From a bacterium (lineage in GTDB: Bacteria; Vulcanimicrobiota; Vulcanimicrobiia; Eremiobacterales; Eremiobacteraceae), in contig CADDZI010000025.1 in the NCBI GenBank assembly GCA_902812405.1, positions 1-34,403 of the forward strand: a DNA stretch of 34,403 nt, given 5' to 3'. The translations under genes and the position numbers were made by a program. Below, in pieces: positions 28,882-34,340 of the stretch. Numbering within the stretch: the stretch's first letter is position 1; the number at the start of each line of letters is the position of its first letter. The notes beneath the pieces are model-generated. The model did not search any database. It had not been told where the DNA came from and saw nothing but the letters and a program-made list of their open reading frames with translations.

Positions 28882-31044
28882 CTATGTGGGGCACGACCGG
28901 GTCTCCAACTCGGACAACAGGTCATGGTCGCTTGCCCAATGCGGGGGGCGACCGAAGCCGCAGACCGCAGTCGTTTTCTCCCCGCGGCTCATCGCATAAC
29001 GCAGGACGCGCCGCTCCTCCTCGAGGTAGAGGTCCTTGGCTGCAAACTTTGCATAATACCAAGCGTATTTTGCCGTTTGCCCCGCCCCACGCGCAACGTT
29101 CTCGCGCACCAGAAGGCCAAACGTGCGGCTGAAGGCCAGCCCCTGCGGCACGTAGATGCGAGGGAAACGCTCCCATGCAACGCCCGCCACGATCACGTGA
29201 TCCCAGCGCAGCCCTTTACAGGACCCGATCCCTTCGACAACAATTGCACCCGGCACCGGCGCAGCCGGAGGCGGCGCAAGGACGTTCGCCTCCAGCCAAT
29301 CCTCGAACTCGGTAGCCGCATGCACGCCCGCAGCCTCGGCCGCACCCGCAACCGCACACAGCCGCCGTAGATCGTCTTCCGCCCGGCGTCCTTCCCACAC
29401 CGAGGCCGTTCGCCAGGCTTCCCGAAAACCGGCTGCGTCCGCCAGATATGCAAGTCTCGCGGCGAGCGGCCGCCCGTTTAGCTCCTTACGCCACCTCTCC
29501 AGGCAGACACGCAAGCCGGCCAGTGACTCTCGTGCCGTCGCAGGTAGGCTCTCGTCGACGCGTCCCTCATAGACGTTGGCAGCCAGTGTGTACGCCACGC
29601 GCGCCGCCGGCGAGCGCTCATGGGCCGGCGCACCCAGAGGCAGCATCTCCTGCTCATCGCGATCGCGAGACAGAAGCCACACACTTCTATCCGAAAGTCC
29701 GACAAGCGGCGATGATAGCACTCGCATGAGGTGTGCTTCGTCGCGCGGATCCTCGAGAACCGCCGCCAGCGCGACCAGATCGGCCAGGTCTTTCGGCCGC
29801 GCAAAAGCATTGGCCGGCCAGGCCGCGGGGATGTCGGCTGTGCGCAACGCCGCGGCGTAGCGGCCGGCGCTCTCGTGCGTTCGCGTCAGCACCGCAATAC
29901 GTTCCGGGGCGCAGCCGCCGCCAAGCAGCCTGTCGAGGTGCCGGGTCAGCCAGGCGACTTCGGACTCCTCATCTGCGCAGCGCACGACGGCCGGTTCATC
30001 GGAGGACGCCTGCGGCGTCATCAGGATGCGGCGTGCATCCGAAAACGCCGCCAAAAGCGAACGCCGCCCACCCAAACCGGCAATGCGCGAGCCGTCGAAT
30101 CCGGCAGCGATGAGGGCAATCTCGCGAACCGCGCGAAGCGCACCGACAATCTTGGGCAGCGCCGGCTCGGCGTCTTCCGCGTCGTCAACAACCAGGACGT
30201 CGATCTCGCGTGCGACGGCCCGTGCGGCAGCCGTATCCCGTTCCAACCAGTCCCAAAGGCACGCAAGGATGTCCTCAGCTGACCGGACGGCGGCCCCCCG
30301 CGCGGCCAGCCTGTATTCCCGGAAGAGTTCAACCAAAAGGCGGACCAGCTCGCGCTCGCCCCGGCGCTGCTGCACGAGGGCCTCGCGCGGCGCACGCAAG
30401 GCAGCACGACCGCGCCGGCTCGCCCGCCGCGCGACCTCGGGATCAGCCAGCAAGCTGAGCGCGCGCTCGACATCCTCGCCGTAAAACGCTCCCAGGCCGC
30501 GCAGACAGCCTTCCTCAAACTCGTCCGGCGTCACGCAGGCTCGTGCCAGCAGCTCACAGAGTACCGCCGCTTCGTCCAAGAGCGCGTGAGGCCGCGAGAG
30601 GTAGGGCACGTCCAGGCTCAGGTCACCGTTGGCGAACATCTCCCAGGACATGGCAAACAGTCCGTGGGCAGCCTGCTCGAGAATGCGGCGCGTAGCGCCT
30701 CGGCCGCCGAGGACAAGATGCGGCGACACGCCGGCCCCGATGCTTCCCGAGTGCAGCCACCGCGCAGCGTGCTCTGCGAGAGTCGCACACACGCTTAAAC
30801 AGCTAGGCTGCGCGCCCGCCCTGACCAATGCGGCTGCGAAGGCTTGCTGCGCCGGGGGGTTGGCAACCACGACCAGCGGACGCCGTCCGCTTCGCCACAG
30901 CCGATCGACGCAAGCCGCCAAGAGTGACGTCTTGCCCGTCCCCGGACCGCCCACCACGAGGATCGTTTCCCCGGGCTCGACGGCGCAGATGTCATCCAGC
31001 GGAGCGAGGCTCGCGTCGCGTGACTCGCCACGTTTAGCGCGCAA
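28882..31044 (-). CDS. UvrD/AddA/AdnA-like DNA helicase
   Basis: A 720-residue superfamily 1 helicase. TTG 31044 is chosen because GGAG lies 7 nt upstream and it overlaps the nuclease gene by 11 nt; the frame further upstream is only the nuclease read out of frame. Walker A GGPGTGKTS is at 32-40, and Walker B is VLVVDDAEDAEP (near 283) with Asp for the usual Glu, as I recall in mycobacterial AdnA. Motif V-like GIGSCKGLRWDHVIVAG and motif VI EEERRVLRYAMSRG (near 678) are present. It is much shorter than AddA (about 1200) and lacks a nuclease domain. With the adjacent nuclease it probably forms a double-strand-break end-processing complex; a defence role is also conceivable. Confidence 0.88.
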   Translation of the reverse strand: MRAKRGESRDASLAPLDDICAVEPGETILVVGGPGTGKTSLLAACVDRLWRSGRRPLVVVANPPAQQAFAAALVRAGAQPSCLSVCATLAEHAARWLHSGSIGAGVSPHLVLGGRGATRRILEQAAHGLFAMSWEMFANGDLSLDVPYLSRPHALLDEAAVLCELLARACVTPDEFEEGCLRGLGAFYGEDVERALSLLADPEVARRASRRGRAALRAPREALVQQRRGERELVRLLVELFREYRLAARGAAVRSAEDILACLWDWLERDTAAARAVAREIDVLVVDDAEDAEPALPKIVGALRAVREIALIAAGFDGSRIAGLGGRRSLLAAFSDARRILMTPQASSDEPAVVRCADEESEVAWLTRHLDRLLGGGCAPERIAVLTRTHESAGRYAAALRTADIPAAWPANAFARPKDLADLVALAAVLEDPRDEAHLMRVLSSPLVGLSDRSVWLLSRDRDEQEMLPLGAPAHERSPAARVAYTLAANVYEGRVDESLPATARESLAGLRVCLERWRKELNGRPLAARLAYLADAAGFREAWRTASVWEGRRAEDDLRRLCAVAGAAEAAGVHAATEFEDWLEANVLAPPPAAPVPGAIVVEGIGSCKGLRWDHVIVAGVAWERFPRIYVPQGLAFSRTFGLLVRENVARGAGQTAKYAWYYAKFAAKDLYLEEERRVLRYAMSRGEKTTAVCGFGRPPHWASDHDLLSELETRSCPT

Positions 31045-33040
31045 AGATCCGCTCCGTATCGATCGGCCTCTCGCGACAGGCGCGGTTGTACAAACAGTGG
31101 CCGCAGGGCGGGCTCGCCCCGGCGACAAAGCGCTCGTATCCGCGCTTGGTCAGGGTATCGCATGTTTCCAGGAGTGCGCTGAGCGCGATTTCGAGGTCGC
31201 GCTCGTTGCACGGTACCGCGACCACCCCCTCAACTGCGGGCGCGTGTTCCTCTCCCTCGCGAACGACGTCCAGCGCCAGCAGCCAGACCTCATCTTTCGG
31301 TTCGCGCAGCGACACGAGAGCCACCCGTCCGACCCGCTCCCCGGCTGCCGTGCGCATTGCGTAGTACAGGGGCAGTTGCGCTTCGGTACCCTGTCGCACC
31401 CGCTCCAGGTAGGCCTCGGCGTCCCCTTCGATGCGTCCGGTCTTATAGTCGTAGATGCAGGTCGGGCCTCCTCCGAGCGGCCGATCGATGCGATCGATGA
31501 CGCCGACGAACTCGTGATCGCCGAAGCGTGCGCGTTGAACCACTTCCACGCCGGCAATCTCGACCGGCCTGCGGGCCGCTTCGGCGGCCAACCACCGCAC
31601 GTACTGCTCGGCCATGCGCCGGGCCTTGACCACCGAGACCGCATACTCCAGCGCACTTGGAAACGCATCTCGCCGCTGCGCAAACGCCTGCTGGATCTCG
31701 CTGTCGAGGCGCAGGAGGATATCCGCCGCGGCGTGCCGGCTGGGAATACGCACGTCACGGTGAACGGCCTCCAACGCGGCGTGCATCGCCTGCCCGTAGG
31801 CGGCCGCGGGTGATCCCGGGTCGGGTAGCACGTCACACAGGTACTCGTAGAACCACCGGCGCGGGCACTGCGCATGCGTATTGAGGCGGGAAGCCGAAAA
31901 TGTCATCGCCGGCGCCGTAAGCGGCTGGGGCGTTTCCGGCACAGGCCATGTCCGCGTGACGCGCGCGCCGTTCCCGGCAAGAGCGGCGGCTGCCGTTGCA
32001 TCGGCCACCGACGCCGTGACGTGCACGGTCAGCCGTCCGCCGTAGGCCCCGCCGAGCAGCGCTTCATCCAGGCCCAAGGCATCTGCGAACAGCGCGAGGT
32101 CGCATGCGGGTGCACACCCGTCTGCAAAAAATAGTCCGGCGCTATCCTCCAAAGGCACCGTCCCCTCCGCCGCACACGGTACGTCCGCCCACACGCGCTC
32201 GTCGCAGGCGTGCGCGAAAAGAATGAGCCGGGCACCCGCCGGCAACAGCGTCCGGTCGATGGTTTCCCACACGGCGTCCGCAAGCTCGGCCCAAGCGCCG
32301 AGCGGTGTGTGGGCCCAATCCATCCAGCCGCACGTGCAGGCTGCGTACGACACGGCCGTGCGCAGTGCATCCGGTCGGCCGGCCGCCGATCGAATCGCCG
32401 CGATTGCTTCTTCCACGCGGACGGCAGTCTCGCGTGCTTCGCTGCTCGGCCGGAGCCGGCTCGCCGACGCGTGCGCCGCCGGGCGTGTCCGTCCAGCTTC
32501 GGCGATCAGCGCGGCTTGCGCGGGATCCAGACCAAACGGTTGCGCTGTCACAGCCAGGCGGTATGCCTCACGGTCACCGTTTGCGGCAACTCGCAAGAGA
32601 TGAAGCATGGTCGACAGCCGTCCGGGACCGGGCCGCGCGAGGACGAAGCCGGATGGCAGACACACGAGCAGGCCGCTGCCACGCAGACGGCCGTGGGCTG
32701 TCGCCAGGTCGGGCACCTCCAGACGCACGCCATCCGTGGGGATGGTTGCACTCTGGGCCGGCAGGCCAGCCGCCCGCAGCCGCTGGCGTGCTCCATACAG
32801 GATCCGAGCCGCCAGCGACACCCCGGGACCCGCATCCGCCACCGCGCGGGCCAGATCGCCATCCGCTACGGCGAGCGCGTCCAGGGCGTCGCCCAAGCGG
32901 GCCAACCGCCCGATCGTCGCAACGTCGACCGCGGGTTGCGGACGGCCGCCCGCGCCCTCGCAGGCCCAGGCTGCCGCAACCGCCCAAAAGCGCGCCACAG
33001 CCGCTCTCCGATCGCAGCGCATCTGCGGTTGCTTGCTCAT
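31034..33040 (-). CDS. AddB-like Fe-S PD-(D/E)XK nuclease
   Basis: A 668-residue protein. The C-terminal third is a RecB/AddB-type PD-(D/E)XK nuclease: GVIDRID (near 511), IYDYKTG (near 530) and the QxxxY helix AQLPLYYAMRT. Four cysteines for a 4Fe-4S staple are one in QCPRRWFYEYL (near 392) and three in CGHCLYNRAC (near 647-656). The N-terminal 390 residues have no Walker A and look like a degenerate helicase-like scaffold. AddB is normally about 1100 residues, so this is compact. ATG 33040 lacks a good ribosome site. The gene lies 41 nt after the Fic gene and overlaps the helicase start, implying one operon. The proteins probably process broken DNA ends for recombination. Confidence 0.88.
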   Translation of the reverse strand: MSKQPQMRCDRRAAVARFWAVAAAWACEGAGGRPQPAVDVATIGRLARLGDALDALAVADGDLARAVADAGPGVSLAARILYGARQRLRAAGLPAQSATIPTDGVRLEVPDLATAHGRLRGSGLLVCLPSGFVLARPGPGRLSTMLHLLRVAANGDREAYRLAVTAQPFGLDPAQAALIAEAGRTRPAAHASASRLRPSSEARETAVRVEEAIAAIRSAAGRPDALRTAVSYAACTCGWMDWAHTPLGAWAELADAVWETIDRTLLPAGARLILFAHACDERVWADVPCAAEGTVPLEDSAGLFFADGCAPACDLALFADALGLDEALLGGAYGGRLTVHVTASVADATAAAALAGNGARVTRTWPVPETPQPLTAPAMTFSASRLNTHAQCPRRWFYEYLCDVLPDPGSPAAAYGQAMHAALEAVHRDVRIPSRHAAADILLRLDSEIQQAFAQRRDAFPSALEYAVSVVKARRMAEQYVRWLAAEAARRPVEIAGVEVVQRARFGDHEFVGVIDRIDRPLGGGPTCIYDYKTGRIEGDAEAYLERVRQGTEAQLPLYYAMRTAAGERVGRVALVSLREPKDEVWLLALDVVREGEEHAPAVEGVVAVPCNERDLEIALSALLETCDTLTKRGYERFVAGASPPCGHCLYNRACRERPIDTERIFAR

Positions 33041-33081: not shown

Positions 33082-34329
33082 TCAGGTGACCGATTGCGCG
33101 GCATTCTCCAAGAGCTCGAAGGACTCCGACACGCGTTCGCACACGAGCTTCAGCAAAAGCGACATGTCGCCGGCGTCGGCTTGACGCAGACCGTCGTAGT
33201 AGCGACTCCGATCCTCGACGCGGATGATCGCCGGCGGATACTGTGCACGGCACAGGACGAGGTTGGAGAGGAGGCGGCCGACGCGTCCGTTGCCGTCGAG
33301 GAAGGGCGCAATGTGGAGAATCTTGGCCTGCGCCGCGGTTGCCTTTGCCAACGGTTCGGCGGGCGATTCGTCAAGCCATTCGATGAACTCACGGAGCATG
33401 CCCGGAACGAGCGCGCTCTCAGGTGGCAAGTAGTCTCGGCCGACAAGCCGGTTGTCGACCCGGCGATACATCCCGGCGTTGTCATCATCGATAGAGGCAA
33501 AGAGGAGTGCGTGGAGTTCGCGAATGCCGTGCTCGGTCAGCGGAGCGTGCGAGAGTGCCAGAACTTCCGCGCGATCCAAAGCCCGGTTGAGATTGACGGC
33601 CTCCAGGTGCTCGCGCAGCGTCAATCCGCCGACAGTCGTCCCCTTGAGCACCACCTCTTCGGTCTGGTCTCGGCTCAAACGGTTTCCGCGGACTGCATTC
33701 GAGTGGTAGATTTCGTCCAAGCGCAACCGTAAACGGCACTGTGCCCGCGCTCGGGTTGCCGCCGGATGAGACGCAAACGCCTGCTGGCGGCAGCTCAGCT
33801 GCGCGAGCTGCTCTTCCAGATCGGCGTCGAACCGCAGTCCGGCAGCTTCTTCCTGTGCCCGGGCCGGCTGGTCCAGCCCCAACGCCGCCAGGTCTACGCC
33901 GTGTTCCGTCAGCCAAGCGAGCGCCATCGCCTCCAGACGGCGTTGGCGATACGCAAGCCAGGATCGGCGCGCTCGTGGGTAGGCTCCCAACAGCGCCAAA
34001 AATCGCGCGTTGCCGGCAGGCGAGGATGCGGCCTCGCGCAGACGCTGCGCCAAGTCCCCGTCGGTCAAGGTCTCGATGAAATCGTACATCACGGCACGGG
34101 CCTGCGCGTGCGAGAGAGGCAAGACCGCGATGACGTCCGCCCTGCGGGCGGCAGCCAGCGCAGCTGGGTCTTCAGCAGCATATGGCTCGACCCGGCCCGT
34201 CGTCAGGACAAAAAAGTAGCGGAACTGTCCGCTGCGGTCATCCAGCGCATCGGCCAGTTCTTCTAAGATGATGTTGCGCACGTGTCGACCGTCGCCGTGT
34301 TCGGCCGGCCGGCCGGGAAGGCCTCGCAT
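33082..34329 (-). CDS. UPF0158-Fic fusion protein with degenerate Fic active site
   Basis: A 415-residue two-part protein. Residues about 20-150 (YFFVLTTGRVEPY, MYDFIETLTDGDLAQRL, FLALLGAYPRARRSWLAYRQRRLEAMALAWLTEHG, each seen as separate blocks) resemble the UPF0158 family. Residues about 200-400 are a Fic domain: IYHSNAVRGNRLS, TVGGLTLREHLEAVN, HIAPFLDGNGRVGRLL and YPPAIIRVEDRSRYYDGL. Compared with the consensus HPFxDGNGR, the catalytic His is Ala341 (a His lies two residues earlier), while Asp345 and the GNGR loop remain. In the inhibitory motif SxxxEGN the Glu is Arg214. Normal AMP transfer therefore seems unlikely. ATG 34329 has no Shine-Dalgarno sequence; GTG 34281 is an alternative. 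First gene of the nuclease-helicase operon. Confidence 0.87.
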   Translation of the reverse strand: MRGLPGRPAEHGDGRHVRNIILEELADALDDRSGQFRYFFVLTTGRVEPYAAEDPAALAAARRADVIAVLPLSHAQARAVMYDFIETLTDGDLAQRLREAASSPAGNARFLALLGAYPRARRSWLAYRQRRLEAMALAWLTEHGVDLAALGLDQPARAQEEAAGLRFDADLEEQLAQLSCRQQAFASHPAATRARAQCRLRLRLDEIYHSNAVRGNRLSRDQTEEVVLKGTTVGGLTLREHLEAVNLNRALDRAEVLALSHAPLTEHGIRELHALLFASIDDDNAGMYRRVDNRLVGRDYLPPESALVPGMLREFIEWLDESPAEPLAKATAAQAKILHIAPFLDGNGRVGRLLSNLVLCRAQYPPAIIRVEDRSRYYDGLRQADAGDMSLLLKLVCERVSESFELLENAAQSVT

Positions 34330-34340
34330 GGGGGAAGCGT

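Follow-up and report, generated by a model that had tools for sequence, protein, structure and literature searches.

Fic proteins are usually regarded as AMP transferases braked by a glutamate. Fic clades that lack the catalytic histidine or are otherwise degenerate have already been described, in the form of Doc clade D2 (PMC4454073) and the Bep domains of Bartonella (PMC8401265). Khater and Mohanty argue that clades without the histidine may be active (PMC4454073), and BepC is a precedent for the use of a Fic domain through partner binding, without detected activity (PMC8401265).

Here we describe a gene, referred to below as pseudo-Fic, from a stretch of 34,403 nucleotides (the window) belonging to a bacterium of the family Eremiobacteraceae, whose genome of 2.3 Mb is 97% complete. 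The encoded protein joins a UPF0158 domain to a Fic domain in which both the catalytic histidine and the inhibitory glutamate are replaced. In the open-access literature that we searched, no clade was found that has serine or alanine for the histidine, an invariant arginine for the glutamate and a fusion to UPF0158; the combination of substitutions and fusion appears to be new.

Gene and domain architecture

The coordinates of the gene, its domains and its neighbors are collected in Table 1. The GTG is more likely to be the start of the gene than the ATG that opens the longer reading frame, because all ten orthologues retain the VRN that begins there, whereas conservation is lacking over most of the sequence upstream. 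A conserved stretch (about GAGGCnnnGCGGGACGGCCGnnCGAA) lies roughly 10-45 bases 5' of the GTG, at 34290-34330 of the window, and is present at the matching position in the genomes G020, G022, G025, G026 and G027. Its in-frame translation is RGxAGRPxE, and since G027 has no usual start codon from which to read it, the stretch may be a regulatory DNA element.

Table 1. Features of the pseudo-Fic locus, with positions counted along the window
Feature	Position	Strand	Details
Pseudo-Fic gene, likely true extent	33082..34281	(-)	399 codons + stop, GTG start; VRN start conserved
ATG-started open reading frame of the pseudo-Fic gene	33082-34329	(-)	ATG at 34329
UPF0158 domain	33880..34281	(-)	Residues 17-150; PF03682 and alignment with 26 standalone UPF0158 domains
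Fic domain	33121..33735	(-)	Residues ~199-403; PF02661, FICD-like by sequence and fold
Arg214 codon CGC, replaces inhibitory Glu	33688..33690	(-)	Arg in 10/10 orthologues
Gln334 codon, replaces usual His	33328..33330	(-)	Gln in 10/10 orthologues
Ala341 codon GCG, replaces catalytic His	33307..33309	(-)	Ser in 6, Ala in 4 orthologues
PFLDGNGRVGR phosphate-binding loop, residues 342-352	33274..33306	(-)	Metal Asp345 and Arg349/Arg352 kept
AddB/Cas4-type PD-(D/E)XK nuclease	31034..33040	(-)	PF12705 at 1e-32; adjoins pseudo-Fic in 10/10 genomes
UvrD/AddA-like helicase	28882..31128	(-)	PF13361 at 1.6e-14; same order in 10/10 genomes

The first-pass annotation of this DNA had proposed a UPF0158-like domain fused to a Fic domain, and Pfam profile searches bear out both halves. 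The Fic half matches PF02661 at 2e-16 over residues 263-359, scoring 61 bits (cut-off 24), and the N-terminal half matches PF03682 at 2e-5 over residues 68-149, scoring 25.1 bits (cut-off 21.1). The protein belongs to the Fic/Doc family PF02661 by fold and homology, and its N-terminal half belongs to UPF0158, both by profile and by an alignment with standalone UPF0158 paralogues that spans this half from end to end. The structure model of the full-length protein has a mean pLDDT of 82.9 and its best fold match is FICD (Foldseek, 4e-10), with a flap at model residues 264-289 that is poorly modelled. The UPF0158 domain modelled alone is confident (90.6), and it has no match in the PDB by profile and no significant one by fold. 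A search of PHROGs gave matches to the Fic half only, all to families of unknown function.

Active-site residues

To place the substitutions we set the ten orthologues beside 17 further Fic proteins, of which almost every one comes from the same phylum. The orthologues form one group with 99/99 support. Three active-site positions that are near-universal among the 17 are changed in this clade, from Glu to Arg214, from His to Gln334 (His in 15 of the 17) and from His to Ser or Ala at 341. No orthologue contains HxFx[D/E]GNGRxxR, the histidine being Ala or Ser throughout, and none contains the inhibitory-helix pattern SxxxE[G/N], in which the glutamate is Arg in all ten; the phosphate and metal loop [D/E]GNGRxxR is present in every one. 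Within PFLDGNGRxxR the residues P, F, L, D, G, N, G, R349 and R352 are invariant among the ten, and so are H273, G286, R289 and Y377.

The annotation had read Ala341 in place of the base histidine of HPFxDGNGR and Arg214 in place of the glutamate of SxxxEGN from this one gene. Both codons were confirmed at the positions and on the strand given in Table 1, and when the conservation of the two residues was checked, all ten orthologues proved to have Arg214 and to lack the histidine, with no close homologue carrying the normal motifs. It had not remarked on the GTG start, the states of Ala or Ser and Arg across the clade, Gln334 or the variability of residue 339.

The orthologue alignment gave no evidence of a new invariant histidine near the active-site loop. 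His339, suggested earlier as a substitute base, can be rejected as this position is H, N or S among the orthologues. In a tree built without site 341, serine and alanine have interchanged there at least twice, which suggests that residue 341 is small and inert and needs no chemistry, rather than being a new catalytic residue. Ser341 as a new nucleophile is disfavored for the same alternation with alanine.

Purifying selection acts strongly on the Fic half, which is not decaying. In five pairs analysed by NG86 its dN/dS is 0.07-0.12, compared with 0.05-0.18 for the UPF0158 half, and it is the lower of the two in four of the pairs; several pairs have a high dS, so the nearer ones, G025/G026 and G020/G022, are the safer guide. 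Mean column identity is 75% for pseudo-Fic vs 50% for the neighboring nuclease and 58% for the helicase.

Distribution among relatives

A search of 149 genomes of the phylum recovered full-length relatives in 10 of the 14 genomes of the same family that were covered, one copy in each. Of the four family genomes in which no such relative was found, three belong to genus g4 and the fourth is 72% complete. In the rest of the phylum the matches were confined to the Fic half and lay in other Fic proteins. Five full-length relatives obtained from GTDB contigs are five of these same ten orthologues, and four of them carry the name Candidatus Eremiobacterota or Eremiobacter. Beyond Eremiobacterota the search for the fusion consisted of a single scan of GTDB contigs with one sequence as query, a method sensitive only to close relatives. 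A viral origin and a plasmid origin were also considered and set aside, as no relative was found in viral contigs and no plasmid match covered 80% of the query.

In most cases the other UPF0158 members of the phylum are short open frames (~150 amino acids). All 14 genomes of the family have a separate UPF0158 protein of ~310 amino acids or more (loci L066-L079, with L071 at G000:C50 2775-3161), and in this paralogue an N-terminal stretch weakly resembles, below the cut-off, the Xre/MbcA/ParS toxin-binding domain (PF09722).

A second Fic lineage without both residues occurs in genus g47, which belongs to another family of the same class (L034 1501-2229, L035 799-1548 and L036 1501-2226). Its motif begins with QPF[PDN] and continues with AN or SGN and then GR, Gln replacing the histidine, and its helix is of the type SSRLAGA, without the glutamate. 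Judged from these sequences, base and brake may have been lost jointly at least twice in the phylum. A Fic-like protein of uncultured Alphaproteobacteria (L009 5001-5636) also lacks the catalytic histidine (IWPFAEGNVR) and has CFDG at the inhibitory motif.

Genomic neighborhood

In all ten genomes the nuclease gene and then the helicase gene lie downstream of pseudo-Fic, on the same strand. The nearest possible start of the nuclease is 2-90 bases past the Fic stop in nine of them; in the tenth the first candidate start overlaps the stop by 50 bases and the next lies 10 bases on. In the eight genomes whose contigs are long enough, genes for an ECF sigma factor and a FecR-like protein are found upstream, oriented oppositely to pseudo-Fic. 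The nuclease has the cysteine pattern C...CxxCx5C (Fe-S type) with invariant cysteines and matches TIGR03623/AddB weakly, and the NCBIfam models of AddA and AddB score far below their cut-offs for these neighbors. The Walker A motif of the helicase is GGPGTGKTS. A stretch DD.EDAEP (DDAED or DDGED) stands at the Walker B position of UvrD helicases, and the match is good for the C-terminal UvrD domain only.

The locus of genus g4 is collinear but without pseudo-Fic, the nuclease following the sigma factor gene, so the nuclease and helicase do not depend on pseudo-Fic. Since g4 falls inside the family in the helicase tree, with weak support, loss of the gene in g4 would be at least as likely as its late gain elsewhere. 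A helicase of this type is found in 108 of the 149 genomes, and pseudo-Fic is therefore an addition to the helicase and not a required part of it.

Discussion

The reading that we favor, with a probability of roughly 0.55, is that pseudo-Fic is a nucleotide-binding adaptor or sensor, the likeliest partner of which would be the DNA-repair-type helicase-nuclease of its operon. It is supported by the occurrence of Arg214 and of Ala or Ser at 341 in ten of ten orthologues, together with the invariance of the other pocket residues. The purifying selection on the Fic half, the serine-alanine interchange at 341, the constant gene order, the FICD-like fold of the model and the BepC precedent speak for it as well. 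The protein keeps the Fic fold and an intact pocket for the nucleotide phosphates, but the base and the glutamate brake are gone. As judged from the biochemistry of other Fic proteins, loss of the histidine, which activates the target hydroxyl, would leave transfer abolished or very weak, and loss of the glutamate would leave the site of the gamma-phosphate open; Arg214 may contact, or help to hold, the phosphates that the glutamate normally excludes. Because D345, R349 and R352 are invariant, putative binding of Mg-NTP is plausible, and on the same biochemical grounds it would proceed without transfer. Nucleotide binding combined with the UPF0158 half could then serve sensing or adapting on a partner protein, for which the AddB-like nuclease and the UvrD/AddA-like helicase would be the best candidates, this being the weakest step of the scheme. 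There are counterpoints. The retained metal-binding aspartate and both phosphate-binding arginines are equally expected of a working enzyme, and the link to the operon may be nothing more than synteny inherited within one family, given that g4 keeps the nuclease and helicase and lacks pseudo-Fic.

The principal rival takes up the first of these counterpoints and holds that the protein is an active transferase with a changed chemistry, using another donor or catalysis without a base, and freed from auto-inhibition by the change of Glu to Arg. Invariant Asp345 and GNGRxxR would fit such an enzyme, AvrB, which lacks the canonical motif, is an active rhamnosyltransferase (PMC10866546), and a His-to-Ala mutant of IbpA retains residual AMPylation (cited in PMC4454073). 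It is nevertheless the less likely choice, perhaps one chance in a few, since no new invariant histidine is evident close to the active-site loop, with position 339 varying between H, N and S and position 341 between S and A, and since the His-to-Ala mutants of Campylobacter fetus Fic2 and Fic3 lose toxicity (PMC5651007). The first-pass annotation had offered a pseudo-enzyme and a different nucleotide chemistry side by side. Of the latter, the use of His339 does not survive the comparison and catalysis by the substituted residue 341 is made unlikely by the serine-alanine interchange, leaving the pseudo-enzyme as the better of the two. A bolder form of the transferase idea, in which the pocket would be reshaped for another donor or for base-free catalysis and the UPF0158 half would recruit the protein to the DNA ends on which the helicase-nuclease acts and so let it regulate recombination or DNA defence, is speculative and in our judgement improbable.

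Neutralization by binding of an active Fic protein or some other toxin, as C. fetus Fic1 acts on Fic2, would also account for an inactive Fic domain, and neutralization of one Fic by another is known (PMC5651007). The weak, sub-cut-off match of the UPF0158 paralogue to the antitoxin toxin-binding domain PF09722 points the same way, but eight of the ten carriers, among them the 97%-complete genome of the window, yielded no further Fic gene. Toxin-antitoxin modules are not typically conserved in single copy at one locus across genera, and pseudo-Fic is so conserved, which makes an immunity or antitoxin-like role quite improbable. The UPF0158 half, of which each family genome encodes a paralogue, might be the only part that matters, with the Fic half a relict kept for folding; this is very unlikely in view of the better conservation of the Fic half in four of five pairs, its dN/dS of down to 0.07 and its invariant phosphate loop. 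Finally, the relatives come from metagenome-assembled genomes, as the window's own genome probably does, and an error, decay or a single mutated copy might be suspected. The substitutions are common to ten genomes in which all frames are open, so this has already been refuted and its probability is negligible, in agreement with the earlier statement that the changes are not simple decay.

If the adaptor or sensor reading is true, the clade would provide a clean, naturally occurring pseudo-Fic from outside the pathogens, in which base and brake were lost jointly, an invariant arginine took the place of the brake and selection has remained strong. It would offer a direct test of what a Fic pocket achieves through binding alone. 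The uncharacterized UPF0158 family meanwhile gains a conserved fusion and a context of neighboring genes.

Comparison with known systems

Among solved proteins the closest to pseudo-Fic are the FICD/HYPE-like Fic AMP transferases (PF02661), in sequence (8e-30, to FICD homologues) as well as in fold. FICD shares the xxxxGN helix and the PFxDGNGRxxR loop, but it has the catalytic His and the inhibitory Glu where pseudo-Fic has Ala or Ser and Arg, and it is fused to TPR repeats instead of UPF0158. Doc clade D2 (Qx[FY]x[DE][GV]NKR; PMC4454073) resembles pseudo-Fic in that the catalytic histidine is replaced and the remaining motif largely kept; it differs in being a single-domain protein of the Doc type with Gln rather than Ser or Ala, no reported change of Glu to Arg and no UPF0158 domain. 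BepC and Bep8 of Bartonella are, like pseudo-Fic, non-canonical Fic domains retained for other roles (PMC8401265). BepC, for which no activity has been detected, acts by binding a partner and relocating it, but unlike pseudo-Fic it keeps its histidine (H146); both are host-targeted effectors, and the pocket of Bep8 is blocked (PFxxGNE) (PMC8401265). AvrB likewise has a Fic fold and lacks the canonical motif (PMC10866546, PMC2686095), but it is a rhamnosyltransferase with an Arg at the D/E site and an inserted lobe, whereas pseudo-Fic keeps D345 and GNGRxxR. With respect to UPF0158 (PF03682), the N-terminal half of pseudo-Fic is a complete member by alignment, while the other members in the phylum are mostly the short open frames noted above.
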